Assembly: GCA_030280995.1 (NCBI GenBank)
Contig: JASXTE010000021.1
Span: 558,001 to 622,000 of the forward strand
DNA from: Hemileia vastatrix
Taxonomy: Eukaryota > Basidiomycota > Pucciniomycetes > Pucciniales > Zaghouaniaceae
Direction of reading: 5' to 3'
DNA: 64,000 bases
Shown in pieces: positions 19,629 to 63,094 of this stretch (positions are counted from its first letter, which is position 1; every line of letters begins with the position of its first letter). A program made the translations under genes and the position numbers. Under the pieces are notes generated by a model. The model made no database searches. It saw only the letters and a program-made list of their open reading frames with translations, and had not been told where the DNA came from.

Positions 19629-20557
19629 ATGATGGATTGTCCTACCCCAACTCTCACACCTCCACACCCTAAAGCAGATGGGGGAATTGTTACCCGGAAA
19701 GATTCCCAAGCATGTACAGCTTGTGATTCCATGGAATAATTCTGTGTGGAAAGCACAGCTACTCAAGGTCCTCGCCAGAAATGCAAGTTTTGCCAGTGTA
19801 GACGGGTGGTGTGCGATGCGTTAGCAAAAAATTTGGATATCGAATGAAGGTTTACCAAGACTAAATATTGGGTAATACTGAAGAGAAAGGAAGTGGTTGA
19901 AGACATATGGGATGTTTAAATTGGGGATGACCAATCAGAAGCAGCTGAGGAGGAAGTCGAGGATAGTATGACGTCCTAGGTAACTTGAGCCATGGGTAAA
20001 CGAAGGGTAGAAGAGGAGGTGGATGAGTTCGTGGAGGAAGATGAGGAGGAAGTTCTTATTCTAAGACGGACACCAAAAAAACAACGGGTGGTCATCGAGG
20101 ATGAAGAAGAGGAAAAAGAAGTGGTGGTGGAGGTTGCTCCAAAATTATTCTTAGAGACTGACCCCATATTTGAAGTAAGTCCATTCTTCTGTTGTTTCTT
20201 AGAAAGTGTGTTACTGATGATCTTATTTAGAATCCAGATATCATCGCAGAAGTTCCAAATGTGGAAACTGCGCTGTTGCCACCAGTCGAGGCAAATCAAC
20301 CAGTGGTTGATTTGAGGGAGAATATCGAAGAGACTCTCGACCAGGTATGGTCAAAGAAACCTTGACAAAGTCAACGGACCAGCTTTATTGAAGATTTAAG
20401 CGGTGAAGTTGATAAGATTGTCGATGCCGCTTCTTTCGACGTGGCTGAAGAACTACTGGAAATTGGGGAAGTGGTACCGGTAGGAGAGGAAGAGGTTTTT
20501 GAAAAATGTAGGAAGGAGATAAGGGTGATTTTGGAGAAGATGAAGGGATTGGTTTGA
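19629..20557 (+). pseudogene. Antisense zinc-cluster gene of element E, one intron
   Basis: The reading frame starts at tandem ATGs (19629, 19632) and stays in one register to 20174; it then has a GT-AG intron (GTAAGT...TTATTTAG, 20175-20230, 56 bp, phase 0) and continues to a TGA at 20555. It predicts about 290 residues: a Cys-rich part (ACTACDSME ... KCKFCQCRRVVCD, a C-x2-C-x6-C cluster near residues 52-58), an acidic/basic part (LILRRTPKKQRVV flanked by Glu runs) and a helical end. Stops at 19737, 19845, 19917, 19977, 19986 and 20364 are each one C-to-T change from CAA, CAG or CGA. It is reminiscent of fungal Zn(2)-C6-like nuclear proteins; DNA binding is inference. Confidence 0.62.
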
Positions 20558-21518
20558 GAGAAAATAAAGGAAAAAAATTAAAATGGAAGGAGAAGGAAAA
20601 GAAAGAAAAAGAAAATTAGAAACAATTTGTATTTATTTATTTTATTTTGTTGTTTTAATTTTACAATTTTAAAATTTTATTTTATAAGATTTTTGAGAGA
20701 AAAAAGAAAAGAAAAAAAATTAAATAAGATTTTGTTTTAAATTTTGAAATAAGAATTTTTAATGAAAGAAGAAAAGAAAGATATTTTAATTGAAAGAGTT
20801 TTAGTTTGAAATTTTGAAAGAAAAAATTATGGAAAAAGAAATAGTTGATTGAAATAATTTTATTGGGAACATAAATTTAATGAAAGAAAAATTAGTCATT
20901 TATGAAAGTTTATTGATCAAAGTTTTAAGGAATTTTAATTATTTTTTTAAAAAAAGAAAGAAAGAAAAGAAGAGAAGAAATAAATTTTAAAAGAATTTAA
21001 AAGAAAGAAGTAATTGTTTGAAGAAAATTTTTTTTAAAAAAAAAAAGATATTTAGAGGTTGAAGTGAAATTTGAGAAAGATTTTCGTGTTGCGTTTGTGG
21101 AAAATTTTGATAGTTTGAGGAAAATGATTTTTTTTTTTTTGAAGAAAGAATGTAGGTAGAAAATTTGAAAAGAAAAGAAAAGAAAATTTAAAGAAATTTT
21201 AGAAGGTTTTATGAATTTTTTATTTATTTTTTTTTAATTTTTAATTTAATTTTATTTTACTTTAATTTATTTAATTTATTTATTTTATTTTATTTTAATT
21301 CTATTTATTTTAATTTAATTTAATTTATTTATTATTATTATAATTTTTTTTAAAAAAATTTAATTTAATTTTATTTTAAAGAAGGTTGAGAAACTTTTGG
21401 AAGAAAAAAAAGAAGAAAGAAGAAAAGAAAACAAAGAATACGGAAATTTTAGAGATAGAGATGTTTTAGACTTTAAAGAGAAGAAGGAAAAAAAGAAAGA
21501 AAAGAAAAAAAAAGAGTT
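20558..21518. other. 960-bp purine-rich spacer in E
   Basis: The top strand is almost all A, G and T, with very few C: runs such as GAAAAGAAAGAAAAAGAAAA alternate with AT-rich stretches. It separates the convergent ends of pol (21519) and the antisense gene (20557). I see no gene. It could serve as a shared 3' region or polypurine tract. Confidence 0.6.
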
Positions 21519-23006
21519 TTAAGGTTTTGGTTTTAAAGGATATTTAAGATGAAAAGATTTTAGAAGTTCAGGGGCGTTAGAAACATTGATGGCTGGTTCC
21601 CAGGATGTTTTGTCTGAATCATCGAGGAAGCCTTCCAATTCCACAAGGTATTGAAGTTTTTCCTTGCGTATTCTTGAATCAAGGATACGGCTTACTTCCC
21701 ACTCTTGATGGTCTTCTACTTTGACCAGTTCTGGAGGAGGTTGGTTCTTGCCGGGGTATGTTTCTCGAGCCAGTTCCAGGAGAGATACGTGGAAAACAGG
21801 GGGAATAGCCTGCCATTTAGGAGGTAGCTTGAGTCAAAATGCAGTTTTAGAGACTTCAGAGTCGATTTCAAATGGTCCCTAGCGTTTTTCAGCCAGTTTC
21901 TTTGATGGTTGAGTTGTTTGAATGTTTTGTGCGTCGAGCCATACTTTGTCGCCTGGTTTAAAAGAAGGAGCAGATTGTTGATGTTTGTGGGCCTGTTCCT
22001 TGTATCTTCGAATTGCTAATTACAAATTTGATTTAATTTCCTCTTGGAGTTGTGATATGGTTCAAAGATAATGTTTGGCAGGATGATTATTTCCTACATG
22101 GATTGAGTTGAATTGAGGATGTCTTCCATAAACAGTTTCGAAAGGAGATTTTTGTGTCAAAGAATGAGTTGAGTTATTATAAGAAAATTCGGCCAATGGT
22201 AACCATGTGGTCCAATCGTCTTGTTGGTAACTGACATACATTCAAAGGTATTGTTTGAGGATTTGGTTGACCCTTTCTGTTTGCCCATTGGTTTCAGGGT
22301 GATAGGCCGTGGAGAGATTCCTCGTGATATTGAGTTGTTGACACAGTTGAGTCCAGAATGTGGATACAAACAATGAACCTCTATCCGAAATAATATCATT
22401 AGGTAAGCCATGTTTGGAAAATACATGTTCTAGAAAATATTTTGACAAATCTTCTGCTGTAGCAGTAGTAGTAGTTTTAATAAAAAAAGACATCTTTGAA
22501 AATCTATCTACTATTACTAATATAGCATCAAAATTTGTAGAAAGAGGAAGTTGAGAAATAAAATCCATCGATAAAGATTCCCAAGGTTTAGAGGGAATAG
22601 GAAGCAGTTGAAGCAACCCATTCTTCCGGTGATGGGGAGCCTTATTCCTATTACATTCATAAAAAGATCTTATATAGGCCTTGATTTCTCTGGTCATTCC
22701 TGGCCAGAAGAAATCCCTTGCTATTAACTGGTAGGTTTTATCAACTCCAATATGACCAGCCAATGGAGAATCATGTTGACTATTGAAAATCCATAATTTT
22801 ATTTCATTGTTGTCAGGTATGACTACTCTACCTTCGAAAACTAATAGACCTGATTCAATACTAAATCTTTTGGCCCCTTCCTTCGAGAGTATTTTGTCTT
22901 TTAACCCTAAATAATAATTGTCCTTCAACTGAGATTCGAGGATGTTGGATAGTGGATTTTGAAAAGATTGAATTGTCATCAAATTAAGTTGATGAGTCAT
23001 TAACAT
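21519..23006 (-). pseudogene. E pol: integrase and chromodomain
   Basis: The frame 22242-23006 holds the zinc finger (HDSPLAGHIGVDKTYQLI ... FYECNRNK) and the core (SMDFISQLP, ISDRGSLFVSTFW, HPETNGQTERVNQILKQ) with all three catalytic acidic residues. The first finger cysteine is Phe (SFYEC rather than SCxxC). The C-terminal part (21519-22241) has many stops but ends in a clear chromodomain: EVSRILDSRIRKEKLQYLVE, then DKTSWEPAINV, finishing at the TAA at 21519-21521. Chromodomains direct such integrases to marked chromatin. Confidence 0.86.
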
Positions 23007-23026
23007 TGATTTGTTGAAAATTTATT

Positions 23027-23746
23027 TCACATTTGCTGGGTTCTTGTCAGCAAATGTGTCCCCCCGCTGTGGGTAAATGTCATCCCAACGTGACAAGATA
23101 TCTGGGACAATGCAGTGGTTACCTGGGCAATAGGAAATAGAAAAGGAAATTCAGACAGAAATTCAGCCCACCTGGCTTGATGCCTTGTTAACACTTTTGA
23201 AGACATGAAGTATTTCAAAGCATTATGGTCTGTTAAAATTTGAAAAGGACTATCTAGGCTGAGAAGAAAAGATCGCCATTTTTTAAGACAATGAATAATA
23301 GGTAAAAGCTCTTTGTCATGAATTTCAAAATTTAATTCTTCTGCAATGAGTTTGCATGACTCAAAAGCAACAGGATGAAACAATTTTGTTTCAGGATTTA
23401 ATTGAGAAATGACCCCTGCAATAGCATAATCGCTTGCATCTGTCTTGACAATTGTTGAAGCAGAAGGATCAAAGTGTCGAAGAATTAGAGCTGTGGTAAA
23501 TGCAGTCTTCAATGCTTCAATTTCCTTTTGTGCTGTAGAAGTAAAAACAAAAGGAATATCTTTTCTAAGAAGAGAAGTAAGATTGGAAATAGTTTTAGAG
23601 TAATCTTTAATAAATCTTCTATAGAAATTTGCAAAACCCAAAAATCCTTGGAGGGATTTAACAGTTTTGGGTTCAGGCCATTCCAGGACTTTTTGGACCT
23701 TTTTGTCCTCCATGACTAAACCATCAGTGGACAATGTAAAACCCAA
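23027..23746 (-). pseudogene. E pol: RT thumb and RNase H
   Basis: The frame begins with GFTLSTDGLVMEDKKVQKVL (end of RT), continues with KSLQGFLGFANFYRRFIKDY and then RNase H: IVKTDASDYAIAGVISQ, IHDKELLPIIHCLKKW, QILTDHNALKYFM, all with their acidic active-site residues. A frameshift near 23120 takes the tail out of register, where the expected (YRPGKENTLPD)-like segment is only partly readable. RNase H removes the RNA strand after cDNA synthesis. Confidence 0.86.
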
Positions 23747-23806
23747 AAAATCAATTGATTTAAGATGGAATTTGCATTTATTGTGCTTGGCCTAGAGACC
23801 GTGATC

Positions 23807-24234
23807 TCAAAGTTGATTTAGAACCTGTCGAACATGATGAATATGTTCATCCAGCGTCTTCGAGAAAATTAAAATATCATCTAAGTAGACGACAAAAAAT
23901 TGTTTGACAACATCTTGGAAGATGTCATTAACAAAAGTTTGAAAAGTTGATGGTGCGTTACACAATCCAAAAGGCTTGACTAAATATTCAAATCTACCAA
24001 ATCTAGTGGGCATTGCAGTCAGTGGTTCATGACCTTCCTCAAAACAAATAAGATTATAAGCGCCTCTAGGATCAATTTTAGAAAAGAAATTAGCACCATT
24101 AAAAAGGGTAAGAAGCAATGACATAGGAGGAACAGGATATGCATTCTTCTTAGTGACTGTGTTGAGCTTTCTATAGTCAACACACAACCTAAGACTATCA
24201 TCCTTCTTCTTTACAAAAAGAACAGGGGAGCCGG
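23807..24234 (-). pseudogene. E pol: reverse transcriptase core, cut by solo LTR C
   Basis: From the insertion point at 24234 it reads SPVLFVKKKDDSLRLCVDY, RKLNTVTKKNAYPVPPM, then GAYNLICFEEGHEPLTAMPT and FFVVYLDDILIFSKTLDEH: the YLDD active site is intact. A TGA follows LNQL at 23807. The N-terminal piece is across the insertion (ASKSPTG, about 34474-34540). The frame joins as SPTG-SPVLF once the LTR and one CCGG are removed. Confidence 0.86.
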
Positions 24235-24291
24235 TGTGGTCTTGCAACATTGGCAAGGGCCTTTGTTGCGTGATTTGGTGTGGTTTTTGCA

Positions 24292-25415
24292 TGTCGGTCA
24301 GTCATCTAGAAGAGATAAGAGAAGAGGGAAGAAAAGAGAGGAGGACAAGAAGGAAATAGTAATTTAGAAATAAAAGAAATAAAAACAAATGAAATTATTT
24401 AATTTATTTTAGAGAAAGCAACGACGTGTGATTTGAGAGGTGACACTAAATTGGTTTTATTAATATTAATATTATTTAAGTAAGAGTTCTGCGCGGCAAA
24501 CACCATTATTACTATCAGACTGAAGGAAACCTTTAAATTGTTATTTAGAATTTTTAATTAGAATTTAATACTAATAAAAATAATAATAAGTGTAATAAAA
24601 TTATCTTTAAATTGTTGAGTGTGTAATAAGTGATGAGGCTACAGGGGATTATCCAAGGCCCTTTTATAGGCAATGGGTCCTCTGAAGCGCCACTATATTT
24701 GTAAATACAATAATTATAATAGGATAAAACAAGTATATCAAAGAGTAAGTGAAACATAACAATGTAGAACAAAATATGAAACAAATAATTAAAAACCCCA
24801 ATTAAGAATCCAATTTTCCCGCCATTAATTCCTAAATCATTAAGTAAAAATAGTGAATAATTAAACAAGCCTGGAACATAAGAACTATGAGAAAAATCAT
24901 TCAAAACAGATGGTACAGTCTGATTTAAGGATTTTTAAGTGAAACAAAAATATTCTGATGCAACAAATATGTAATTTATTTCAATTCAGTATTAATTAGT
25001 TTTTCCTGACACAATTATAGGTCAAAAGAAGCGTCATTATTTATTGTTTAATATTATAAAAAATGATATTTAATATATAAATATAAATAATTAATTTAAT
25101 TATAGTATAAGTAAATTTTACACTTATAATTATAATATATGTTTTAAATTAATTCAATATAAATTTATAGTTATTAAATACATAAAAAATGCGCCATTAT
25201 TTTTAGAATATAATATATTGTGTTAAATTTAAATGTATAAAAAATTTATATAACCAATAAAATTAATATAACACTTATATGTAATAAAATACTTATATAA
25301 ATTTTTTATGCAATAAAATATTAATTTATATACATTAAATAAAATTCTTACCCCCTCTTTCAGGTCTTATAAGTTGCATATCATTTACTGGACTCCTGGA
25401 ATAGCCTGGCTTACA
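24292..25415 (-). repeat. 3' LTR of A2
   Basis: Begins on the minus strand after the purine tract GAGTGAGGGAG (25416-25426). Outer end TGTCGGTCAGTCATC, inner end GGCTTACA (mutated from GGCTGACA). TATA box at 24661-24668, minus strand. Equal in length to the 5' LTR, with a few per cent of differences by eye. Confidence 0.93.
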
Positions 25416-25450
25416 CTCCCTCACTCTAAAAAAAACAATAAAAAAAAATG

Positions 25451-28192
25451 CTAAGATTTTTTCTTTTTGTACTTTTTCAACAGAGTAGGCAGATTTCAAA
25501 TCTCCTTACCAGGTATCCATGCATCATGTTCAGATGATTTGTTCTTATATCTCAATAAATATTCAGTACCTCTTTCAGAAGTGATAATTCTATCATTGAG
25601 AATTTTATCAATTTCTGCTGTTTCTGTGACTTCCTGAGGGTTTTTCTTAGGTCTTCCCCTTCTTTTGGGAAATAAGTCACTGTTGGAAGTATAAGGCTTA
25701 AGCAAAGAAATGGTAAAAACAGGATGTTTCCTATCATATGGAGAATACAATACAACTTCTACTGCATTATCACCAACCATTCTTTTAACAACAAATGGTC
25801 CTACAAAAGGATCTTTTAATTTGTGGTTACCTTGTAAATTGAAATGGACAGTACAGATCAACACTTCATCACCCTTGTTAAATGTGTATTCTTTATGGGA
25901 TTTATCCCATCTTTTCTTTTCATATTCAAATCCTTTATCAATACAGCTCTGAGCATGTTTTCTGCATAGCTGTTGCATTTGCATAAAAGATTTTACACCA
26001 GGGTATAGTTCCAACTTAGGTAATTTATTATTGAGAATCTGAGCAGGAGTGTTTGGGACATAACCTAACGAAAGCTCAAAAGGATTTTTCTCAGTGACAG
26101 AATGAACAGTGCTATTATATGCAAATTCAAGACCAGGAAAAAGAGTGACCCAATCATGAGTAAATCTGTCATTGTCTTTATATTCTAAACCAAAGGCACA
26201 ATACCTTCTAATCATATCTTCCAGAGTTTGAATCATTCTCTCAGCTAGACCATCAGTCTGAGGATGGTGAGCTGTAGACAATTTTAACTCACAGCCACAA
26301 ATATCCATCAAGGAGGTCCAAAACTCAGAAGTGAATTTTGGATCCCTATCAGAGATAATGGCTTTTGGAAAACCAATAATATTAAACATGTAAGACCACC
26401 ATAAGAAAGCTAATTCTTTGGTGGATACATCTTTGTGGGTTGGAATAAATTTACACATTTTTGTGAATCTATCCACTATTACCCAACAAGAGTTAAAGCT
26501 GTCTTTACCTGCAACAGGAAGACCAGTGACAAAATCCATATTAATGATTTTCCAGGGAGCACTAGGTGCTTCAAAATGTTGTAATAACCCTGCTCTCTTA
26601 CCTGTTAACCTTTTAGATTCTTGGCAGGAATCACAAGATTCAACATATAATTTTGTGTCTTCAGACATATTAGCCCACCATGCAGTGTTTTTGATTCTAA
26701 TCAATGTTTTTTCAAGATCAAAATGTCCAGCTAATATGTCATCATGACAAAGTTTGAGGATAGTTTCTTTCATTGAAGGAGGAATTACAATTACATTAGT
26801 AAGCTTCCTTCTATAATATATATAACCATCTTCAATAGAGAACTTTCCTTTATTTAAAGCATTTTGATACTTTGCAGGAAGAGTTTTTATTAATGCTTGA
26901 ATTGAAGCATTCTTAGGATCATTTAAGATAGTAACCAATTTATTTAAATCAGAATCCTTATCATATGAATCCAGTATTAATTGTAATAACTCCTCTTCCA
27001 TATCAACTATAAATATACCATGGATATGAACAGTATCATCTTCAGGTACATAAGCAGGATTTGAGTCATTATTTGGCAGAGGCAATCTGGAGAGAATATC
27101 AACATTGGAGTGAACATTTTCAGCTCTATGGATAATTTTCATCCGTCCTCTGTCCTCTTGAACAGCAAGTTGCCACCTGAACATATGTCTGTTAGGTGTC
27201 TTTAGGTTTAAGAGGGACTTCACAGCACTACAGTCAGTTACCAACTCAAATTTTTGGTCATCCAAATAGTAATGAAGTTTCTCAAGAGCCCAAACAGCTG
27301 CTAAGCACACCAATTGAGTGGCACCATATTTCAATTCACTATTTCTTAAGGTTCTTGAAATATAACAAATTACAACCTCTGAGGATTTATCATTAATAAT
27401 TTGCTTCTGGTGAAGGGAAGCACCCAGACCAATAAAGCTAGCATCTGTATATAGGACAAATGGCTTGTTAAAATCTGGAAGAGCCAATATAGGGGCTGTC
27501 ATTAAGCAACTTTTTAATGTATCAAAAGCTTTTTGACAGTCATTATTCCAGAGAAAAGCAACATCTTTTCTGGTCAGTTTTGTAAGAGGCAAGGCTATGA
27601 CCTGATAATTTTTAATATATTTTCTATAATAGCCACACATACCCAAAAAACTTTGGATTTCTCTTACAGAAGTTGGTGCTTTCACATTTTGAATGGTAGC
27701 AACTTTGTTATGGTCTACACAAATTTGTAAGCATGACACAACATGGCCATGGACTTTCAAAGATTGAAAACCAAATTTACACTTTTTTAAAGATAAGGTC
27801 ATATTGATTTCATCCATTTTTTGGAAAACTCTATTCAAGTGAATCATATGTTCATCAAAAGTTTTAGAAAAAACAATAATATCATCAATATAAACCATGA
27901 GCCAACCTTCAATAATTTCTTGATGGAAAGTGTTATCCATAACTTTCTGGAAAACTGAAGGAGCATTTTTAGGGCCAAATGGCATCCTAACATACTTATA
28001 TATTCCCATATGAGTAGCAATAAGCAAAAATTTTTGAGAATTTTTCTCAACTGGAACTTGATGATAACCTTTATTACCATCCAGACAACTAATAAATTTT
28101 GCACCTTGCAAGGTAACATGTATTGTATTAATTCTGGGTAAAGGATAAATATCATCAACAGTATAAGTATTTAAAGCTCTGTAATCTCCACA
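25451..28192 (-). CDS. A2 pol: RT, RNase H, integrase, chromodomain (871-codon ORF)
   Basis: The open frame is 25496-28111. RT: SCLDGNKGYHQVPVEKNSQ, VRMPFGPKNAPSVFQ and MVYIDDIIVFSKTF (YIDD near residue 74). RNase H: LYTDASFIGLGASLHQ (near 219) and FELVTDCSAVKSLL. Integrase finger HDDILAGHFDLEKTL ... CDSCQESKRL (near 490), catalytic residues in MDFVTGLP, ISDRDPKF (near 585) and GLAERMIQ (near 624). GPF module DPFVGPFVVKR (near 770), basic linker KRRGRPKKNPQE and chromodomain EIDKILNDR ... YLLRYKNKSSEHDAW. A TGA at 25496 removes the last 14 residues present in A3, whose stop is equivalent to 25451. A TAA at 28193 cuts it from the upstream part. Confidence 0.9.
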
Positions 28193-29128
28193 TTATCTAG
28201 ATTTATCTTTTTCATAAGAAATCAAGACTGGGGAGATGACACTATATTTGGGGGTGACATCCACTTTCTCAATGATATTCATTTTCAATAATGTTTCAAT
28301 ATTATCTTCAATATCCTTTCTTTTTGTTGGAGAAGCAGGATATGGTTTTTTCTTAAAACTAGGAGGAATATAACTCAAGCTAGATGATAAGGTAATTTTC
28401 ATCTCTTCCTGAACAATTCCCAAGAAATGAGAACCATGAGCAAAAGCCATAGGGAAAGAGGTAATAGAGGCAAAAATAGAATCTTTTTGTTCACTAGTCA
28501 ACTGATCACCAAAAGAAGCAGTATTTATTTCATGTAATAAATCATCCATTTCAGTTGTTGTTCTACCTTTACACTGGATCAGTGAGTTACAAGATTTCAA
28601 CAAATGCCCAGAATTTTTAGGAGAGGAAATTTTGAATTTCCTTTTTCCATTCATTCCTAAGGTAAAGCAATTATTTTCTGGGTCCAGTTTCACACCAAAC
28701 ATGCTTAAAATATCATTTCCCATAATAAACCAATTGCTCAAATTATCATTTTTCATGACAACAAACTCACAAATAGCTCTGACAAAACCACCATTATATT
28801 TGAAGAATACAGAGGTTTTGTATTTGCCAATAGGAAATAAGGTAGAACCATACCCTCTCCATTTTTCAGAAGTTATAGGTAATAATTTACTCAAATATTC
28901 TTTATCCACTAAAGCTAAAGCTTTTTCAGACACTACACTTCCTCCAGCACCAGAATCAAGAACTACATCAACATTTTTACCATTAATGATAACAGGTGCC
29001 TTTAAATGGGATATAGGAATAGAATTGTTAGTAATATCTTTAATTATCTCAGCATTTTCTACTGAAGATAAATCTAATACACATTTTTCAGATATATTAT
29101 TTAAGTAATGGACATCTTGTTCCAACAT
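28193..29128 (-). pseudogene. A2 protease and start of RT
   Basis: A 311-codon frame. Protease: APVIINGKNVDVVLDSGAGG (catalytic DSG near residue 57) and NWFIMGNDILSMFGVKLDP. The linker GRTTTEMDDLLHEI leads into the RT start KKKPYPASPTKRKDIEDNIE and YSVISPVLISYEKDKSR. The frame stops at a TAA where A3 has RLCGDYRALN, so one base change splits RT. Otherwise it aligns with A3 residue for residue by eye. Confidence 0.87.
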
Positions 29129-31623
29129 TAAAACATCTTTAACTGATTCATTGCAATAGGAGATATTATTTTCACAGTCACTGGAAGAATTATTGACATC
29201 AAGTTCAACTTCATCAGTGTCTTCATTTTGTTCAACAAGATGATTTTCTTTTCACAAACATGACCCTTCTGCCATGGTTTGCTACATTTATAACAAGTAT
29301 ATGTTGTGTATTTTTTAGGAGCAACTGGGAAAGAGGATTTACTAGATTTCTCTGGGAGCTTTGTAGAAGGTTTATTCTGATCATTATAAGATTTACCAAG
29401 GTAATTCTTTGGTTCATATCTATGGTTGAGAAGTACTTCATTACAGATATTAATGAAAGAAGAATTTTCCCTTACATGCTCAGTTCTAGCCACAATCAAA
29501 TCCCTAAGAGAATTTGGTAATTCATACAAGATTTTATCTCTCCAAATATCATAATCCATCTTTGGATCAATTGCTTTAAGGATTTTTGTTATTTTCATCA
29601 GAAAAACAATGGGCTTTTCAACAGAGGAGGATATATATCTAGTATTCTCATACAGTCTCTGTTGAGCTAACCTGAATTTTGAACCACCAAACTGATTCTC
29701 AATCAAGGATTATCAATCATTCCATGTATAATGATTGTTATCTAAAGGAACAGATTCATACCACATCAAGGCTACATTGGAAAATAAAGAAATTAGCTTA
29801 GAAACAATTTCCTCATCAGGTAGTTTATAAGATCTCTTTAAATTGTCAATTCTCTGGATAAAGTGTTGCCAATCAGAGGAAGAATCACCATCAAAGGTAG
29901 GATATTGGTCTAACTTAGGCCAATTTTTCTGACTACTGGGATGGTCCACTTTTTGGTTTGAATTATTCATTATTAATAATTCCTGAAGTTTAGCCAGGTG
30001 TTCAGAAATTTCATTATTTACAGAAACAGCTGGTGCATGACCATCACAAGATTTTTTGCTAGTAGCAAAAGATTTTACAGACTCATTGTCAGTTTGTTTA
30101 ATGGTTGAAATATGAGGAAAAAAGGATGAACTTTGTTCAGGTTTTTTTCCTTTATTTTTATGCAGCTTATTGACAGCAATCTCATTTAATTCATTATTGA
30201 TGGTTAAGGTTGAGAACTTTTCCTGCAGGTCAGACACATACTTTCTTATTCTTGGAATTTCAGACATCTGGTCATTTACTTTTGCAAGAGATAGAACATT
30301 TCTGTCTTCAGAAACTTAGTGTTTGGTACTTAGTGCATGGAAATCATTTATTAGCTTTTTAAACTCATTTTTCAGAGATTTTATTTCATTTTTGAATGAA
30401 TAATTTTCTTCAATAAGGGGTTTCAATTCACTCAAGGTCTTATGTAGACTGATATTTCTATCTGAGATAGCTCTATGGTCACTTCTTATTTGTTTTTGTT
30501 GACTAAGAACAATATTCAAGGTTTCTTTGATTTTTAAATAAGCTGTATCTTGTACAGAAGAACTCACTTTACATTGCACGTGTAAACTATTTAATCTATC
30601 ATTTTCATGGATTAACACATCTCTCACATGTTTGTCTTTCACAACATTAAAATCAAGGGTATCTTTCAATATTTCCTCAGAAGTTCTTTCAATTAAGGTA
30701 TAGATTTCAGGGGGAACAGAATCATTTTTAATTGCAAGAGAAGGATTAATTATAGAAGTAGAAGTAGAGACTTAATTGAAAGGTTCATCAAATGACACTT
30801 TGCTAATTACATCAATAGGGCTACTAGTTACAGGAAACTGTCTTTTAACAGGTTTTACTGTTCTTTCACCATGTTCAATAATATTACCTGCAGAAGAATT
30901 TTTATTAGAAAACATACCCAAGTGACTATCAACCAAATTACTTACCATGGCAGAGGAGGAAACTTTCCCTGAGACTGGGTTTGGGATTGTGCTTGGGCCT
31001 TCTTTCTCCTGCGTTGTTGGTAGGGATGAGGAGGTGGATGGAAATTGGGTGTTCTGGATGGGCCAGGCTGATGATGAGGAGGGTGTTTCACATTCTGTTG
31101 GTAGTGACTCAGTAGATAATCCCATTTCCATTGCTCTACTTCCATAGTATTTGGATTTTGGATGGTTGAGATGGGTGGCTGTGAAGGTTGAGCCTGAAAC
31201 TGAGGCTGATTGGGAGGCAACTGAGGAGGGGCCTGGGCCTGAATCTGGTTCCTGAGTTCTTCAACCTGATCCCACAAGGTGTCTAATTTTGCTTTGTACG
31301 TCATATTTTCTGTCTTCAACTCTTTTATATGACTGGACAGGTTGCTGATTTGTTGTGGCAGAGGAAGCTTTTTTATTTTGAATCCTTTTGGAAGACCTTC
31401 TTGAGGTACTAGAGGCTTTACTTCCTTCTGTTGTGCTGGGGGAAGGGGGTTTGGTTTTTTTACTTCTCCTGTCATTTCCACATCCTGAAGTATGTGAATT
31501 CTTTGTGTTAGCATAAGATTTTTTATGTCTAACTTTAGAAGAACTCACAGTATCAGCATCATAGTCAATTTCAATTTCATCCACTTGCATAATATCCATT
31601 TTTTCACCCAAATTGTTGGACAT
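29128..31623 (-). pseudogene. A2 gag: N-terminus, coiled coil, capsid, zinc knuckle
   Basis: Starts at ATG 31623 (MSNNLGEKMDIMQVDEIEID). Open pieces: 31261-31623, 30772-31131, 30316-30669 (coiled coil), 29713-30267 (KNWPKLDQYPTFDGDSSSDW capsid segment) and 29128-29706 (FGGSKFRLAQQRLYENTRY and the knuckle CYKCSKPWQKGHVC). Stops near 31261, 30770, 30316 and a double TGA/TAA near 29708 break it; A3 keeps sense codons at most of these places. Unlike in A3, the frame passes from SSSAMVSNLVDSHLGMF into SNKNSSAGNIIEHG without a shift, which shows the original register. Confidence 0.87.
30942..31514 (-). CDS. A2 overlapping ORF2: Pro/Gln-rich coiled-coil WKWD protein (190 aa)
   Basis: An uninterrupted frame from ATG 31514 (MLTQRIHILQDVEMTG), inside gag but in another register, while gag itself has acquired a stop at 31261. 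It has FKIKKLPLPQQISNLSSHIK, a coiled coil (LDTLWDQVEELRNQIQ, near residues 60-80), a Pro/Gln-rich stretch, MEVEQWKWDYLLSHYQQN, HPYQQRRRKKAQAQSQ and an end in PPLPW-stop. It matches A3 (47464-48036) and, in order of motifs, B and D. Function unknown. Confidence 0.62.
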   Translation of the reverse strand: MLTQRIHILQDVEMTGEVKKPNPLPPAQQKEVKPLVPQEGLPKGFKIKKLPLPQQISNLSSHIKELKTENMTYKAKLDTLWDQVEELRNQIQAQAPPQLPPNQPQFQAQPSQPPISTIQNPNTMEVEQWKWDYLLSHYQQNVKHPPHHQPGPSRTPNFHPPPHPYQQRRRKKAQAQSQTQSQGKFPPLPW

Positions 31624-49979: not shown

Positions 49980-49984
49980 AAAAC

Positions 49985-50226: not shown

Positions 50227-50344
50227 TACTGTTTATTCAGAATATAAATTATAGAAAATTTAAAAAATTATTTTTCTATTTCACTCCTTACTTTTAAATT
50301 AAAATGTCTTAACATTTTTTTATTGTTTTTTTTGGGTGAGGGAG

Positions 50345-51522
50345 TGTCAGCCTAGATATCCCTAGGACTGAGTATTTCTTATGCTAAAAATAAGATAACC
50401 TTAAGTACATTATGCTCTTATCTTAAAAATAAGTTTAAAACAATTATATATATGATTATAATACATATATATATAATTATTACAATATTATATAACTTAT
50501 AGTAGTTTAAATAGCTTATCCATAGCCTAAGAATACTTATTAAGGTGTTAATGTAGTCATAATATACTTATCTTAAGTGATATGAAGTAATTATTGACAT
50601 ACATAAGCTTATATGTATACATAAATCTCATATTCAGTGAAATATACAGTATATTATGTATATTTAGGTATATAAGTGGGTTTTAGCTCCTTAATAGCCT
50701 ATAAACTTTGTTTTTATGCTTATTTTAGGTCATATGGACGTATCAAATGGACTCACAACGCCTACAGAAGCATAAACGTCTATTTCAGGCGCATACACTC
50801 AGTCTGGACAACTTAATCTGCTTCCTTGGATGAACATTCACAGATTTACGGGTTGGGAGGTCATTGCTAGGTTAATATGGATGCTGGGGGATGATATTGG
50901 GGGCTTTGAAATTTCAATTTTTTCATTTATATGCTTTGGGTTTCATTAAATCTCTTTTTGATTGCTTATTTTACCTGTTTCTTTATTGTATCCGCTTTTA
51001 TCTGGATTTTTTACTTGTGGTATAGATCTGTGTTATCATTAATTGTGATGGAGGGTCCTTACTGGAGGTCTGGATGTTGAATCTACTTGAAGTGGAAGCC
51101 GTGAAGAGGTGATGGGCCCTCAAAGTGCTTTAATTTCTGGGGATAGAAGTGACATCATCTGTATTAAAGGTCTGTGCACTCCAGGGAATTTGGGTATAAG
51201 TAAGGAGGGATTTTGACGGTTATTTATCATCAATTACTTACTAAAATTCAATAAAACACTTCAATAAAATTATAAACATTTATAAATATATTATAAAGCC
51301 TTTTATAAGTTGATATTATCATTATATAATCTATAACTATATTCTATTTATCTATTTTCCACCACTAGCACGCATTTAAATCTAAGTAATGTGAGTTTTA
51401 TTTGAGTATAACTATTTTATTAGTCTTCCCCTGAGGTTTAATCACTAAATCATTTATTAATAAGTAGAAGGACCATAAATAAATACTTTTATATCATACT
51501 TATATACTAGACTATACTGACA
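50345..51522 (+). repeat. 3' LTR of element D
   Basis: 1,178 bp, TGTCAGCCTAGATATCCC to CTATACTGACA, then the duplicated TAAGG (51523-51527). Pairs with 13993-15151. Confidence 0.93.
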
Positions 51523-51527
51523 TAAGG

Positions 51528-52386
51528 GGTCATTTCCTCATTTTTTAGTTACAAAAGATAGCTGTTTAATTTTGTTTTTCATGTTTTACGGGCTAACCTT
51601 AAGTCTTAGGGTTAAGTACTTAGTACCATTACATAGGGCTAATTTAGCTCTAAATTTCATGTCTCAATGTTGTTATAGTGAAATTCCGTGTTTTAAAGGT
51701 TTTAGTAGTTGTAGCTAATTTTTCTAAGTAGATTAGGTGTTTTTATTGGTTTTCTGGCTTCAGGGAGGCCAGGCCGCTTCAGGCGGCACGCCCGCCTCTG
51801 TTTTAGAAGGTTGGGGAGCGCTTCTGGAGGGTTTTCATTCAATTTGGCTGGTACAGGCACCAAATTTGTTGGTGTGCATGGGCTCTTAGATAGTGGTCTG
51901 TGTGTACATAGTGAATAAGACAGTTTGGGGCAACTTTAATTATCATACAACCATCCAGAGGTGATATCCTTGTTCCTCACTCAGTTTTCACTGTTTTTGG
52001 CCACAATTGGCTGTGTTTGTTTCAAGGCTAGTTCTTCATTTAACTCAACTTTAGCAACAGGTTCTATGGTATAGTCTTGCAAGCTTTACCAAGTATTATT
52101 GCTGTCTCTGGTGTGGATTTGCAGCCCACATCAAGTATCTTTTCTTTCTCTGGTGTTGACATTGGTCTAAATTTCAATTCTTTGGTCTGGTAGTCTGTCT
52201 GGGGACTACTTTCTTGGCTCATCAAGCAGTCAGGTGTGTTGAAAAAGGGGTTTAGCAAACAGGAACCAACTTACTTTAGCAAGTAAATCTCACTCTATTT
52301 TTCTAAAGGGACAGGGTATTTTCTCTCTGTTTTTTCTCCAACTCCTTTGGTCAAGGCCTATAGCTAGTACTATAGGATTGTCTACA
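51528..52386 (+). repeat. 5' LTR of element C, second part
   Basis: Continues 13781-13992 after D (GGTCATTTCCTCATTTTTTAG) and ends ATTGTCTACA at 52386. It matches 63357-64000 and 33600-34469. It has a GC-rich stretch (GGCCAGGCCGCTTCAGGCGG near 51765-51790), partly self-complementary. Reassembled length about 1,071 bp. Confidence 0.9.
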
Positions 52387-52406: not shown

Positions 52407-52477
52407 TAAGAACTTTCTAGTTCTTTGGAATCTCTGTTTTCTTTGGTTGGCTCTTTTTGGTGTTTTGGTCTGGAGGA

Positions 52478-55097: not shown

Positions 55098-55745
55098 TGC
55101 AGAAAAGTTTTGGTGGTGAGATTGGGGTATAAAAGTAAGTCCTCCCAATTGTGCACTGCTAGGGTTTCTTCTACACCTTTCAAAAACATTACCTGGGCCA
55201 CACATGTGAGCATTGGGGAAACCCCTGGTTATTTTGGTAGTTCAGAAAAAAACTCAATAGAAGAAGATAAAAATTTCAAGATAATTCAAGAAAATCAATA
55301 AAAAAATCTGAAGATAATGAAGAAAGAAGATTCAAAATATTTTTGTGAAGATCTTCAAGATCAATTTTTGGGCCTCCAGAATGAGGTTAAACTGCAGAAA
55401 ATTATGAAGAAAGAAGATCATCAAGATCAATTTTTGGGCCTCCAGAATGAGGTTAAACTGCAGAAAATTATGAAGAAAGAAGATCATCAAGATCAATTTT
55501 TTGGCCTCCAGCATGAGGATAAACTGCACAATTTTAAAAGAGTTGATTCTGATGATGAATCAAGAATTGAAGATTTGGAAGACGGAAGTGAGGATAAAGA
55601 TTTGGAATTGCGGAAAAGTTTTGGAGTGGTGAGATTGGGGTCTAAAAGTAAGTCTTTTCCAATTGTGCACCGCTAGGGTTTCTTCTACACCTTTCAAAAA
55701 CATTACCTTGGCCACACATGTGAGAAATGGGGAAACCCTTGGTTT
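55098..55745 (+). repeat. Coding duplication with internal 66-bp tandem repeats in C pol
   Basis: Two copies of a 130-140-bp block (55098-55240 and 55611-55745, sharing CACTGCTAGGG/CACCGCTAGGG, TTTCTTCTACACCTTTCAAA and GGCCACACATGTGAG) flank a spacer holding a 66-bp unit repeated two and a half times (55359-55424, 55425-55490, from 55491). The unit reads QDQFLGLQNEVKLQKIMKKE. It lies between protease and RT, where this element type has a variable linker. Confidence 0.85.
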
Positions 55746-56819: not shown

Positions 56820-56869
56820 AAGAAAAAGATTAATAAAATTCAGTCATGGCCAAGGCCTAAAAATACTAC

Positions 56870-57660
56870 TGAAGTCAGGGGATTTTTGTGTGTGTGTGTA
56901 TATCAGGATTTTTATTAAGGATTTTTATTTGTTGGCTTCACCTTTAAGGAAGTTGACCAGGAAAGATGCAGATTGGGAATGGACTGGAGAGTGTGAAGAG
57001 GCTTTTCAGAAGTTGAAAAAGGTTGTTGGGGAAGATATTGTTCTTCACAAGTTGGATTATGGTGTTGGTGCTGGAAAAATTTATCTGGAAGTGGACTCAA
57101 GCTATATTGCTGCTGGTGCTGTTTTGTCTCAGGAGGATAAAACTGGGAGGGTCAGGCCATTATGATATAATTCTGTGGTGTTTAATGAGGTGGAATCTAG
57201 GTATTATCAACCTAAGTTGGAATTGTGTGGTGTAGCAAAAATTTTAAAGAAGCTACAGACTGTTTTGTGGGAGCAGCATTTTGAGCTGCAGGTGGATGAA
57301 AAATCTTTGGTTCAGATGATCAATACACCTAGTCTTCCAAATGCTCCAATGACTAGGTGGGTGGCATTTATTCAACATTTTTCTTTTGACCTGGTACACA
57401 AACCAGACAAAACTTTTACAATGCCTGATGGATTATCAAGGAGGCCACCTACAGATGAAGATTCTGAGGCTGAAGAGTTTAATGAAGATGTTCCAGTGGT
57501 TAGGGCCAGCACAAAGGGTGCTGAAGATTTTTCTGACCTCCCCCAAGAGGCTAAACTGGCTGGATCTGATCTTGATTCTGGTGATTGGGATGTTTTTGTT
57601 GATGAAGATGGAGTTGTTGTTTGGGACAGCTCAAATTTGAAAAAAGGGTGTTTTTGTTAG
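56870..57660 (+). pseudogene. C RNase H
   Basis: Pieces 56890-57165 and 57175-57660 are joined by a stop (TGA 57163). IFIKDFYLLASPLRKLTRKD, WTGECEEAFQKLKKVVGED, then IYLEVDSSYIAAGAVLSQED (first Asp), NEVESRYYQPKLELCGV (Glu), FELQVDEKSLVQMINTP (Asp), TRWVAFIQHFSFDLVHKPDK, MPDGLSRRPP. All key acidic residues are present. A TG repeat (56889-56900) disrupts the junction with RT. Confidence 0.86.
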
Positions 57661-59095
57661 TGAACTGGATTCTCACAAGTTTCAGTGGAAAGAGAAGGAT
57701 GTGCCAAAAATTTAAGGATTGGTGTCCTGGTTGGGCTGGTCAATTGGCTCATGTTCACACTGGTGATTTTGATGACAGAGTTGTACCCTTGGATGTTGTT
57801 TTGTTGGATTTTGAAGATGAGACCTGGGGTCAGTCTGGGTTTTATTTTTTTATGGTGGAATATCTGTTGACCTTGGAGAGGCCAGATAGTTGTGATGATG
57901 ATACTTGGTTGGCAATTAAGAAGAATAGTCCTGGATTTTATGTGTCAGGAAGAAGGTTGATGAGGAGAAGGCATCCTAATCCTCAAGTTGTGGTGACTCA
58001 GAAGAAGGGTCAAGAAGTTGTGCTGAAGGCTTTGCATGAAGACCTTGGTCATAGAGGCTTTGGGGAGACTTATAGAAGAGTAGATGACATATTTTGGTGG
58101 CCAGGTATGAAGTTGGCTGTGCAGGGTTGGGTTCAATCCTGTGAAGAATGTCAAAGAAGAAGTCACTTGAAACCTAAAGAGTTCAGCCGTGCTACTGGTG
58201 AATCAACTGTTTTTGGAAGAGTCAGTCTGGACGCTGTCCATATTAAAGAGGACAGGTATAAATACTTAATTGTTTCCAGGGATGATTTGTCTGGTTGGTT
58301 TGAGGCAGCACCTCTGCTTAACTTTACTTCCAAGAATGTGGCAGAGATTTTGAAGAAGGAGTGGATCTATAGGTATGGGTTGATTAAGTTGGTGACTGTT
58401 GATGGTGGGCCAGAGTTTGGTGCCGAATTTAAAGAAGCTGTGGCTAGTGATGGTTTTAAAGTTAGAGTGGCTACACTTATTATCCTGAAGCTGAAGACAT
58501 GGTTGAAAGATTCCATCAAGTTATCAAGAATGCTTTGGTAAAGATGTGTGGGGATAGTGCTGAAAAGTGGAGGCATTATTTACCCTTAGTATTATTTGCT
58601 GATGGGGTCACTGTGGAGAGGACAACTAGCTATTCTCCTTATGAGTTAATGTTTGGTCAAAAAGCTGTTCTACCAGTGGACTTGGAAGCTCTCTCTTATG
58701 TTGGAATTGATTGGGATGATGTGCACTCAACAGAAGAATTGCTCTGTGCCAGGATGCAACAGTTGGAATGTAGAGAGGAATGTCAAGAGAAGGCATACTC
58801 TAGAATGATGAGGATTAGGAATCAATCAGTCAGATACTGGGACAAGAAGTTGGCTCATAGACTCAGGAATCCCTTGAAACCTGGTTGTTTGGTTTTGGTG
58901 TATAATAGAAGTTTGGAGAGTCAGTGGGGAAAAATGTTTGCCAACAGATGGAACGGACCTTACAGAGTCGGATCTCAGGTGTCTCAAGGTTCTTATGTTT
59001 TGGAAGAGTTGGATGGTGCAGTCTTGAAGAAGAGAGTGGCTGAAGACCAGGTGAAGAGGTTCTATCCCAGAGGCACTAGACATGAAGAAGATTGA
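57661..59095 (+). pseudogene. C integrase, no chromodomain
   Basis: Frame 57621-58541: zinc finger HEDLGHRGFGETYRRV ... SCEECQRRSH, core SLDAVHIKEDRYKYLIVSRD and TVDGGPEFGAEFKEAV. A one-base break near 58480 passes it to 58499-59095: EDMVERFHQVIKNALVKM with the catalytic Glu, SYSPYELMFGQKAVLPVDLE, GPY module FANRWNGPYRVGSQV and a basic end RFYPRGTRHEED-stop. The protein stops soon after the GPY module; no chromodomain follows. Confidence 0.88.
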
Positions 59096-59492
59096 CTCCG
59101 CAATGAGGATAAACTATGGAAAGTTCTTTAAATTTTGGAATTTTTGATGTTGCAGAGCAACTTTTGTGTTGGAAACTTTTTGTTAGAAGGTACCCATGGG
59201 TGGGGCTTCTAGATTTTATCTTGTCAAGTGTAGGGGTAACTAATGGGCTGGCTGCTCTGTAGAACAATAACCCCAGATTGTCTGTTTCCAACCCTTTCTC
59301 TTAATTTGGTTTAAACCTAGTATTGGTTTATTTTCACAGGTTTTAGTCCTCTATGACTTTAAACTGGAATTCCCTTTGGTTTTCATGTGCTGGAATCTTC
59401 ACTCTTATTGTTTTTGGTTTATTGTGTTGGATGTTGTGTTTTTTTTAGAAGGTACCCAGGGGGGGCTTCTAGTTTTTATTTTGGCAAGTGTG

Positions 59493-59534
59493 GGGGTAAC
59501 TGATGAGCTGGCTGCTCTGTAGAACAGTTACCCC
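59493..59534 (+). repeat. Hairpin repeat type 1 (three copies: here, 59233-59274 and 62233-62273)
   Basis: The stem GGGGTAACTG/CAGTTACCCC (10 bp) closes a 22-base loop with an inner GAGC/GCTC stem. The copy at 62233-62273 has GGGGTAATTG/CAATTACCCC with the inner GGGC/GCTC; the changed base pair is compensated. The copy at 59233-59274 has three mismatches. All sit in a wider shared block (GGCAAGT...GGGCTGG...CTCT...ACCCCAGA). Confidence 0.75.
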
Positions 59535-59960
59535 AGAATTTCTGTCTCAAGTGTTTTGCTTTTCCTAGTTGAATTCTAGTTCTGTTGTTTATTATTCAGG
59601 TTTCAAGTCCACTATGACTTTAAACTGGTTTGGGACTGGCTTCTATATCTTTGGTTTTTTTTGTTTTTTTTGGGTTGGTGGTGGATCACTGGTGGTCTCC
59701 CATCATTTTTACATATTGGAGGGAGCCCACCAAGTGATCATTACTATGGACTGGACCTTCTCTTACTGGACCTTCTCTTAATCTGGACCATCCATGGAGC
59801 TGGACTTTCTTTGATTTTTAAGTTATGATTTTGCTAGATAGTAGTTTCAGATTATTTTCTTTTTTCTCTTCTCTTCTTTTAATTTTTTATAGGGGTTGTT
59901 AAAATTATAAAATTAAAAAAATAGGTTGTTACCGCATCAAGGCCACCTGGATGTGGGCAA

Positions 59961-60195: not shown

Positions 60196-60366
60196 ATTTG
60201 TATTATTTTTTATCTTTTATTTTATTTCATTTATTTTTTATTTTATTTATAAATTTTTAATTTTAGTATGTTAGTAGAGTCACTCAAAAAAAATAATTAG
60301 AATTTATAGTTATTAATTGTTTTTATTATTTATTTATTATCATGTTTTTAATCTTTTTTCAGGAGC

Positions 60367-61914
60367 TCATTGTCTGGATGATGAAGTTTCTGGAGGCTGG
60401 TCCGGATTATGATGTCCTTTTTGTTTTTTGTAGGGGTTTTGGGAAGCACTGTGTTCTTTGAAGTGCATCCTGCTGGAGAGATTATATGGATTATAATGGG
60501 CAGGAATGGGTTTGGATGGAAGTTCAGAAGAGGAAGAAGAAGAGTCAGGAATGGATTGTTGGAAGGTGTGCTTAATGATCCTAGACATCTTCCAGTGGTC
60601 ATCCAATAGTTGCTTCCTCAAGGTTTTCTCAAAGTCATTTAATGGTCCATGGAGGGCAAAGGCTTTCAGCATGTTTGAACACATGGTGCTGAGGTGTTGT
60701 TTCATCTCTCCATAATCCAGGGTCAAAGAAGTTTCTAGAGGTTGGCCAACTCCAATAGTAGATTCAGGAGGAGGGGTGCCAACTAGACAAGAAGAATTGG
60801 ATCAGTAATTATTTTTGTTGAATAAATTGGATGAATTAATGTGGTACTTACAGATTGGAAGCTCATAAAATTTGTGAGCGGCTGGAATTTGGACTTCTGA
60901 AGATTTTGGAATGGTGATAGTAGGTGGATCAATCAGGGAAAGATACAGATTCTCTTGGTCTTCCTCTGAAAGGTTTTGAGAAGGTGAACTAGGAGACTGA
61001 TGTTCCTGGGGCCTAGTTGGAGCAGCAGGTCTGCTGTTGCTGTTGTTAATATTTCTGCTTGGTTCAGTTGGATGAAGTGCTGTTGATGGAGTACCACGGT
61101 TGTTATAAGATGGAGCAGGAGAGGGTGATTTGGAAGCGGATTGATCTCTTCTGGATGGAGCTTTTGAAGGAATGGAACTGTCAGAAGAATAGTTGGCTGA
61201 CATAGGAGAGGTGTAGTTTCTTTGCTTTAACTGGGGATGAAGTTGTTGCTTTGGTGCAGTGTTGGGTGCTTTGGTTTCTTCCTGGGGTCCTCTAGCAGGT
61301 CTCCTAGAATTTTGTGAAATTTTGGAGTTTTTGGACCTTGGAAGGGTTGGCTGCATTGCTCTGGGAGCAGTGGGAGGTAATTGCGTGGAGTTGTTTTTTT
61401 GATTGGAGGAATTTGGCTGTTTTCTGGTTGTTCTGGAGGTTTTGAGCCTGATTTTTACTGTCTAGTGAGGCTGGCAGGCCACCTGGACACAGTCTAGAAG
61501 CCTAGAAGCTGATTTGGAAGCTTTTGGAGCTGATTTAGCAGATATAAAAGCTGTTTCTTGGGAAGTTATAGCAGGAATTTTTGGGAGAGTTCTGGAAACT
61601 GAATTCCGGGATCTTTTGGATGGTGCTGAGGATAAATATGAAGAGGCTGGACCAAGCTCTGGGGATCTGGTAGGGGATCTGGAGAGTTATTTATGAGAAG
61701 GTGAAGGAGAAGGAATATGGTAGTTGACATCTCTATCACATTTCTTCTTTTTGGAGTAGCAAGAATCACAGGCCCTGTTGTAGAATTTGGCTTTAGGAGT
61801 TGGAAGAGTGAATGTGAAAGGTCTGCACATGTGGATGCACTGTTTTCAGGCATAGTCCTTGGGAGCAGTGAAGCAAGGAAGAGTAGAGGGGTCAAAATCA
61901 GGGGATCTTGCCAT
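60367..61914 (-). pseudogene. Antisense zinc-cluster gene 1 of element C, one intron
   Basis: Start ATG 61914 (MARSPDFDPSTLPCF). One register runs to 60852; then comes an intron 60851-60783 (GTAAGT...TTGTCTAG, 69 bp, phase 1), and exon 2 (60782-60367) continues FGTPPPESTIGVGQPLE ... SLTLDYGEMKQHLSTM to the stop. About 492 residues: a Cys cluster ACDSCYSKKKKCDR near residue 55, preceded by KQCIHMC; a long Ser/Pro-rich part; a C-terminal helical domain (FEKTLRKQLLDDHWKMSRII). Three internal stops (TGA, TAA, TAG) are each one C-to-T change from CGA, CAA, CAG. The pattern C-x2-C-x6-C fits fungal Zn(2)-C6-like proteins; a regulatory role is inference. A TATA-like CATAAAATAG lies at about 62045-62055 (minus strand). 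Confidence 0.66.
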
Positions 61915-62454
61915 GATCTGTGGTGAGAAAAGATTATGGAAAGAGATAAGAAGGAAATTTTTGTTAGTGATGGGAAGATGATGAAGTGAAGGTGGAAGTT
62001 CAGCAGTTTTGTTGTAGGTGTGTTCTGTATGAAATTGGCTGTGTCTATTTTATGCCGAATTCCAGTAGTCCATTAAGACTTTAAACTGAACACTGTGTTA
62101 GTCCGCCAAGACTTTAAAGTGAGAATTGTTTGATGGTGTAGTCCCCCAATACTATAAACTGAGGAATGGGTTTGGAAGATTGGCAGAGGGTATCCACATG
62201 GGGAGCCTCTGAATTTAGCAAAGGCAAGTTTGGGGGTAATTGATGGGCTGGAAGCTCTATTCACAATTACCCCAGAATGTTACTTTTTTCTCTGTGTCTT
62301 AATGTGGTTGATCTCTGGTTCTGCGTTTATGATTTAGGTTTTTGAGTCCCCCAAGACTATTAAATGAGGATGGTCCCCCAAGACTTAAAACTGAGGGTTG
62401 TTTTTGGTTATATCCTATAGAGGGTGTGGTCAACTTTTCTTCTCTGAATCAAGC
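61915..62454. other. Spacer between the antisense genes of C, with short repeats
   Basis: Holds five copies of the motif GTCC-x2-x4-GACTxTAAACTGA (62068, 62101, 62141, 62346, 62373), one type 1 hairpin (62233-62273) and the likely promoter of gene 1. No ORF I can support. Confidence 0.65.
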
Positions 62455-63094
62455 TCAAGTACTAGTGGAATTACAGAGGGAATCAAGAGATGAAATGAAG
62501 TGTTCAGAATTAGCCTTTAACTGGTGAATGAGTTGTCTTCTGTTCTCAATGTTCTGTGGATCTCTAGCAGGAGTGGATTGGAAGTAGTTTAGCAGAAGGT
62601 GTTTCTGTTGAGACATGTCTTTTTGGAACTTGGCCTTAATGGTGGGCAAGTGGTTTGGTGTTTTTGGTTCAATGGATCCTACATTGTTATCATCACTTTC
62701 AGAAGATGGAGGAACTGAGAAGTTGTCAGTTTTATAAAGTGGAAAGAAGAAATGGAAGGTTTTACCATCAGATGGACCAGGGATGGTAGAACTTGTTGCT
62801 TTAGTGGTTTTGGAACTCTTCTGGGAAGGGTGTAGCTTTTTGATTATCTGGGAATCAATATGGATGGCCTAGATCTTTTGGTGCTGGTAGAAGATGGACC
62901 AGGTTGAGGTGGAGGTGAAGCTTTTGCAGAAGATAATGGACCAGGTCTGTAGCAGGACTTCTTTCTGGAGTGGCAGACATCACAGGACATTCTGTATGGG
63001 TGGACAGGAGGTGTGATGGTGCAGATTAAATTATTGTTGATGCAGTATTGGAAGAACCCATTTCAGAGGCAGATTTGGGAAGAAGGTTGAACAT
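62455..63094 (-). pseudogene. Antisense zinc-cluster gene 2 of element C, paralogue of gene 1
   Basis: The Cys cluster SCDVCHSRKKSCYR (about 62948-62989) is preceded by FQYCINNNLICTITPP, matching the order CIHMC ... TFTLPTP of gene 1. After a frame break near 62870 it continues HPSQKSSKTTKATSST, PGPSDGKTFHFFFPLYK and a helical end IKAKFQKDMSQQKHLLLNYF ... NRRQLIHQLKANSEHFISSL to TGA 62455. The N-terminal start is uncertain: ATG 63094 is in a different register and a TGA precedes the cluster. I could not find a clean intron. A decayed copy of the same gene type. Confidence 0.55.

Follow-up and report, generated by a model that had tools for sequence, protein, structure and literature searches.

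Two Gypsy retrotransposons of the fungus Hemileia vastatrix, here called elements E and C, carry antisense genes between pol and the 3' long terminal repeat (LTR): one in E, and two (C1 and C2) in C. Both elements lie in a 64,000-nucleotide stretch of assembly GCA_030280995.1 (contig JASXTE010000021.1, C790 in our numbering, positions 558001-622000), hereafter called the window. We put at about even the chance that the three are accessory genes of the retrotransposons, encoding regulators that act on the element itself. They are taken as accessory genes rather than recent cargo because they occupy the same place in the copies examined and because the E gene is under clear purifying selection. 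That they may encode DNA-binding regulators is suggested by the putative zinc-binding pattern of six cysteines kept in copies of the genes.

Element E is a single Gypsy element on the minus strand. Its gag, pol and chromodomain are read from that strand, the antisense gene is on the plus strand, and a GATGC target duplication is found on both outer sides (18718-18722 and 37454-37458). Element C is a Gypsy element on the plus strand, with a 5' LTR ending near 52386 and a 3' LTR starting at 63143; C1 and C2 are on the minus strand, opposite to the integrase. The two elements belong to different lineages, since E has a chromodomain and none was found in the last 198 residues of C (58499-59095); the best local match between their integrase pieces was 37% over 38 residues. 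The initial annotation had given the coordinates and C-x2-C-x6-C motifs of the three genes, their antisense position and the division into a chromodomain and a non-chromodomain lineage, and all of these were confirmed. The coordinates are collected in Table 1.

The coding signal in the window was compared with that of shuffled sequence. When the best of six frames was taken, none of 1000 dinucleotide shuffles was as open as C1, 660 of 1000 were as open as E, and the two C2 pieces were matched by 198 and 24 of 1000. Frame openness alone was therefore rejected as evidence for E. Codon periodicity was more discriminating: the values of E exon 1, E exon 2 and C1 exon 1 were reached by 0 of 2000 shuffles each, against 370 to 1764 of 2000 for four neighbouring stretches. 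Periodicity was weak in other parts: 58 of 2000 shuffles reached the value of the cysteine-bearing N-terminal part of E, 83 and 68 reached those of the C2 pieces, and 291 reached that of C1 exon 2. Moreover, a composition model trained on one E exon selects the spliced frame of the other exon, and the six-cysteine motif of E has its sole match in the 64 kb there and none in 60 shuffled windows. The initial annotation had named chance frames as a refuting outcome; C1 stands out from chance by openness and by the periodicity of exon 1, and E by motif and periodicity but not by openness. A second intron in E exon 2 was also considered and dropped; the frame continues there apart from one stop.

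Copies were sought throughout the 747.6 Mb assembly of 791 contigs. The searches scored the best 40 of the first-look candidates (4399 for E, 4684 for C2 and 5021 for C1); the three families are therefore large but uncounted. Copies were mostly chosen by their likeness to the antisense gene, which biases the counts of presence and of insertions and deletions (indels) for E and C2. C1 and the integrase in stretches picked by C2 are free of this bias, as are four E stretches picked by chromodomain, drawn from 40 chromodomain matches among those without a listed gene match. The window copy and the allelic copies L002, L010 and L039 were excluded from the stop, substitution-ratio, third-position and indel counts, with L010 still included in the stop list. 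Counted copies had to cover 85% of the query, or 80% for LTRs and post-pol stretches.

Homologues at the same antisense place, which the initial annotation had proposed to look for in other Gypsy elements, were found elsewhere in the assembly. In 20 C stretches picked by C2, one of them an allele, C2 was beside the LTR in all 20 and C1 was present in 18; the integrase end was found in 17, always on the strand opposite to the antisense genes (17/17). Among seven E copies with flanks, six (one an allele) had the LTR, the gene and the opposite-strand chromodomain, and the seventh showed neither LTR nor chromodomain. All four chromodomain-chosen E stretches contained the antisense gene, 74-75% identical over most of its length in three and partial at 91% in one; the other copies were mostly chosen by the gene itself. 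Within the best-40 lists, all 18 co-located pairs of pol part and gene had the two on opposite strands (six of the pairs come from the window and its allele). C1 and C2 shared a strand in 9 of 9 pairs. This strand count took in 40 of 41 C1 rows, a 109-nt piece being left out. In the three diverged E stretches (L074, L076 and L077), the chromodomains are about 95% identical to that of the window and the antisense genes only 74-75%. The antisense part may have been exchanged between E sublineages.

Selection was assessed through the ratio of nonsynonymous to synonymous differences, as proportions (pN/pS) or rates (dN/dS). Purifying selection on the E antisense gene is clear. Between diverged sublineages (three copies versus five), exon 1 showed a synonymous difference of 0.52, a pN/pS of 0.22 (0.17-0.28) and a dN/dS of 0.14; the two wrong forward frames gave dN/dS values of 0.96 and 1.43. 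Among nearer copies, with intervals from a codon bootstrap, pN/pS was 0.39 (0.31-0.50) for E exon 1, 0.40 (0.29-0.57) for E exon 2 and 0.33 (0.24-0.46) for the C integrase. C1 exon 1 and exon 2 gave 0.78 (0.61-0.99) and 0.61 (0.46-0.84). Conservation of the E gene is thus roughly like that of the C integrase, and that of C1 and C2 is lower. Wrong-frame values were 0.57-0.92 for E exon 1 and went down to 0.46 in one reverse frame of E exon 2; the C1 exon 1 value falls within its wrong-frame range (0.76-0.94). The excess of informative columns at third positions reached significance in both E exons (exon 1, p 0.0003; exon 2, 0.04) and in the integrase (5e-7). C2 was free of stops in 18 of 29 other copies, and C1 exon 1 had at least one stop in each of 16 copies.

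The initial annotation had also described two introns in register. Across 21 copies the E intron measures 54-57 nt, with GT conserved in 19, CTGAT in 20 and the terminal TAG in all of them; in three diverged copies it is 57, 77 and 75 nt long, and the signals are kept despite the change in length. The C1 intron could be matched over its full length in 13 of 18 copies, but its register is weaker evidence than the 56 nt of E because 69 nt is a multiple of three. No intron was seen in C2.

The cysteine-cluster pattern of fungal Zn2Cys6 proteins is C-x2-C-x6-C-x(5-12)-C-x2-C-x(6-8)-C. In copies, each of the three proteins has two C-x2-C-x6-C units; the linker is 12 residues in E and C2, fitting this pattern, and 15 in C1. 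The further cysteines noticed earlier ahead of the cluster are therefore another such unit, obscured by mutations in the window copies of C1 and C2. All six cysteines were present in 10 of 21 E copies, four of which have a stop inside the motif; the two-unit head was found in 6 of 20 stretches for C1 and in 14 of 30 loci for C2. In Pfam searches, Zn_clus (PF00172) matched C2 in two stretches at 18.1 and 18.9 bits, C1 at 16.9 and 16.5 and the window C2 piece at 17.8, below the gathering score of 21 bits, and no further known domain was found in the proteins. The best C2 match places the first unit on profile positions 17-35; the second unit falls on positions 2-14 in the window C2 piece (17.8 bits) and on positions 1-16 in C1. 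Basic residues sit in the second unit, not the first, and C1 and C2 have neither the basic first unit nor the profile order of units expected of Zn2Cys6 members. From these alignments, the halves of the cluster are apparently swapped relative to Zn_clus; as both units resemble each other, this might be a true permutation or the basic unit matching anywhere. The proteins are thus like fungal Zn2Cys6 factors in their two units and in the C1 and C2 scores just below the cut-off, and unlike them in the apparent reordering, in the position of the basic residues and in E being unmatched. C1 resembles C2 (tblastn 1.4e-6, low-complexity filter off), and profile comparison detected no similarity between E and C2. 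E and C2 may therefore have been recruited separately or have diverged beyond recognition. The earlier suggestion of one zinc-cluster gene shared by E and C stands for the architecture, but not for homology of the proteins, which was not detectable.

A TATA-type box precedes the E gene. It reads TATAAAA in 18 of 21 copies and TATAGAA in two more, and the remaining copy has the LTR end of another element. In many C copies (L009-L038, oriented positions 1314-1500), the C2 frame is open from inside the 3' LTR; the true start codon may therefore lie in the LTR. Element C also contains a repeated motif, CCAAGACTTTAAACTGA, which occurs seven times in the window with at most three mismatches, in one orientation; every occurrence lies between pol and C2, and none is inside C1. 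Of 100 shuffles, 0 reached seven. Each fetched C stretch has 3-14 occurrences. The array is a candidate operator array. A 90-nt unit with a GGGGTAA...TTACCCC inverted repeat is found three times in C (59199-59288, 59459-59548 and 62199-62288), downstream of pol and in the spacer that separates C1 from C2; other copies of C have it too.

If the three genes are regulators, an antisense mRNA would start at the inner edge of the 3' LTR, from the TATA box in E and from the LTR or spacer in C, and would be spliced where an intron exists. Its translation would give a small protein whose head is a DNA-binding zinc cluster, followed by a disordered middle part and a tail of helices. This protein would bind sites in the element, the candidate in C being the repeated motif beside C1, and would tune transcription of the sense genome, as is thought for nuclear proteins that some retroviruses and some plant Gypsy elements encode in antisense. 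A more specific version is possible, at odds clearly below even. Gypsy elements here would repeatedly have taken up a swapped-half zinc-cluster protein, encoded antisense, spliced and expressed from a 3' LTR promoter, which binds a repeat array of the element and controls how the element itself is transcribed. It would be a counterpart, from an unrecognised protein family, of the antisense protein HBZ of human T-cell leukaemia virus type 1 (HTLV-1), recruited separately by chromodomain and other lineages.

Several observations weigh against the regulator reading. The window copies of the antisense genes are mostly broken, with six premature stops in E, three in C1, and an interrupted and shifted frame in C2. 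Purifying selection on C1 and C2 is weak: the pN/pS of C2 is 0.70 (0.50-1.01), an interval that touches 1.01, and none of C2 (p 0.16), C1 exon 1 (0.17) and C1 exon 2 (0.08) has a significant third-position excess. The Zn_clus gathering score was not reached even by the best match (18.9 versus 21 bits), and the Pfam search gave no Zn_clus match in E. AlphaFold models had low confidence (mean predicted local distance difference test scores of 41 and 50). Finally, CCAAGACTTTAAACTGA was chosen after the repeats had been seen.

RNA binding is another role of cysteine clusters that contain basic residues. The proteins might therefore be RNA-binding accessory factors, nucleocapsid-like or involved in export or packaging, with the cysteine head binding element RNA. 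The failure to qualify for Zn_clus membership is in keeping with this explanation, to which we assign a modest probability. However, fungal DNA-binding clusters have just this doubled C-x2-C-x6-C spacing, and no cysteine-cluster family other than Zn_clus matched C1 and C2 above chance level.

The initial annotation had viewed the genes as a host-like regulator carried as cargo. A gene captured from the host or another element would serve the host or would do nothing for the element. Fungi have many zinc-cluster genes, and introns are common in host genes, both of which suit such an origin. We nevertheless consider it unlikely and did not retain the earlier view: the examined copies have the genes at a constant position, and diverged E sublineages keep the gene under selection. 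In addition, no host parent or outside relative was found, in a protein database thin for such fungi. E and C1 translations had no match at E <= 0.01 among 1823 and 4596 candidates, respectively; a control search with the C integrase gave 15 relatives, of which 12 lie on contigs shorter than 4 kb. As the database is thin for such fungi, the absence of E and C1 relatives means little. Viral contigs gave no relative with three queries, and the search of genome contigs gave one contig of a bacterial metagenome-assembled genome, ending at the integrase. Record P0008 ("Xanthomonas sp. A2111") contains an integrase that shares 76% identity with the C integrase across 27% of the query; its probable source is fungal DNA contaminating a bacterial assembly.

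For retrotransposons, PMC7264820 describes antisense transcripts that act as RNA. The antisense RNA itself might then be the product, as double-stranded RNA or in copy-number control, with incidental coding capacity. This is rather improbable, as the constraint on E is frame-specific and C1 exon 2 has 0.75 indels per kb per copy pair, versus 3.64 in the C LTR and 12.7 in the C spacer (integrase, 0.48). For C1 and C2 this explanation is less well excluded than for E. The indel density of C1 exon 1, at 2.62, is only somewhat under that of the LTR. The low values of E and C2 (0.4-1.65) are partly due to how copies were chosen. That the frames are chance or functionless relics, as the ordinary openness of the E window copy (660 of 1000 shuffles) might suggest, is very improbable, being refuted for E by the dN/dS of diverged sublineages and opposed for C, on weaker data, by the openness of C1 (0 of 1000). 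The codon periodicity and the unique six-cysteine motif of E, and the stop, third-position and pN/pS results in copies, also speak against it.

HBZ is a spliced basic leucine zipper (bZIP) protein. It is described as a nuclear regulator that an LTR element encodes in antisense at its 3' end, with an antisense promoter in the 3' LTR (PMC11963269, PMC7264820). The E and C genes share the antisense position at the 3' end; HBZ differs in being a bZIP protein of a retrovirus, unrelated in sequence to the E and C proteins. Among plant elements, gene23 of Grande and other antisense open reading frames (ORFs) of the aORF-3R class have a promoter in the upstream region and a nuclear product (PMC7264820), as proposed for E and C. 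They are described as without clear similarity to other proteins, and no zinc cluster is mentioned in PMC7264820, where the word zinc is absent. The aORF-3R position between pol and the 3' LTR was found in the window, in 6/7 flanked E copies and in 20/20 C2-picked stretches (C2 beside the LTR), on the strand opposite to pol. The plant Retand lineage has antisense ORFs between pol and the 3' LTR, with a TRP28 domain and predicted DNA binding; repeat arrays are present in about half of these elements (PMC11963269), often in the same region. Retand differs from E and C in its plant hosts and in having TRP28 instead of a cysteine cluster; the word intron is absent from PMC11963269. Boty-like Gypsy elements of Botrytis cinerea carry the antisense gene brtn (PMC7264820, PMC8365987, PMC4227169), and Boty has a chromodomain (PMC4227169). 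By description only, brtn is likewise an extra antisense gene between pol and the 3' LTR of a fungal Gypsy element; its host is an ascomycete. The class of antisense accessory genes is thus already known, from plant Gypsy elements (Retand and Grande, PMC11963269 and PMC7264820), as the initial annotation had stated, and from fungal Boty; its function is called undetermined in PMC7264820. In the portions of the open-licence literature searched, neither a Gypsy element with an antisense zinc-cluster gene nor a permuted Zn2Cys6 was found, nor were the swapped-half head, the intron, the tandem pair in C or the occurrence in two lineages of one genome.

Table 1. Features of elements E and C in the window.
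Feature	Position	Strand	Evidence
E 3' LTR	18723-19531	-	GATGC flanks; 91.7% identical to 5' LTR
E TATA-type box, just inside 3' LTR, about 85 nt before antisense ATG	19542-19549	+	sequence
E antisense gene, exon 1 (broken copy)	19629-20174	+	ATG at 19629; codon signal; selection in copies
E head, C-x2-C-x6-C-x12-C-x2-C-x6-C	19713-19814	+	motif search
E intron	20175-20230 (56 nt)	+	GTAAGT...CTGAT...TAG
E antisense gene, exon 2 (broken copy), helix-like tail	20231-20557	+	stop codon ends 20557
E chromodomain	21519-21833	-	Pfam PF00385, 1.4e-10
E pol pieces: integrase, RNase H, part of reverse transcriptase	22242-24234	-	junction with C-type LTR near 24235
E gag piece	35700-36119	-	PF03732, 1.4e-9
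E 5' LTR	36664-37453	-	LTR comparison
C integrase region	57621-59095	+	domain search
Two CCAAGACTTTAAACTGA-like motif copies after pol	59351-59628	+	motif count
C1 exon 2	60367-60782	-	frame; selection in copies
C1 intron	60783-60851 (69 nt)	-	GTAAGT...CTGAT...TAG
C1 exon 1 (broken copy)	60852-61914	-	frame openness, codon periodicity
C1 second C-x2-C-x6-C unit	61738-61770	-	motif search
Five CCAAGACTTTAAACTGA-like motif copies between C1 and C2, candidate operator array	62073-62394	+	motif count
C2 antisense gene (broken copy), adjoins 3' LTR	62455-63094	-	frame; copies
C2 second C-x2-C-x6-C unit	62952-62984	-	motif search
C 3' LTR	63143-64000	+	window end cuts LTR

The DNA of the window consists of nested retrotransposons, with a guanine-plus-cytosine content of 26-45% per 2 kb. 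A C-type LTR (about 24235 to 34468) lies inside the pol of E and is itself split by another element at 24292-33428. A stretch of about 1.2 kb, present at 13992-15180 and 50344-51551 with 92% identity, interrupts two C-type LTRs and is a second kind of mobile insertion. Within the gag-pol region of C, a 66-nt unit is repeated 2.8 times (55347-55528). Rfam and tRNA scans of the window found nothing. Parts of the window occur in the same arrangement, 99-100% identical, near 10.60-10.64 Mb of contig C348, which is probably the alternative haplotype of the window contig.

If the regulator reading is true, LTR elements in an element-rich genome would encode their own transcription factors on the opposite strand. 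This would give a concrete function to antisense accessory genes and a second kind of antisense regulator beside that of deltaretroviruses. Self-regulation of an element would become testable through a defined protein and a defined array of sites. Moreover, with thousands of first-look candidates in one genome, such genes could inflate counts of fungal transcription factors.

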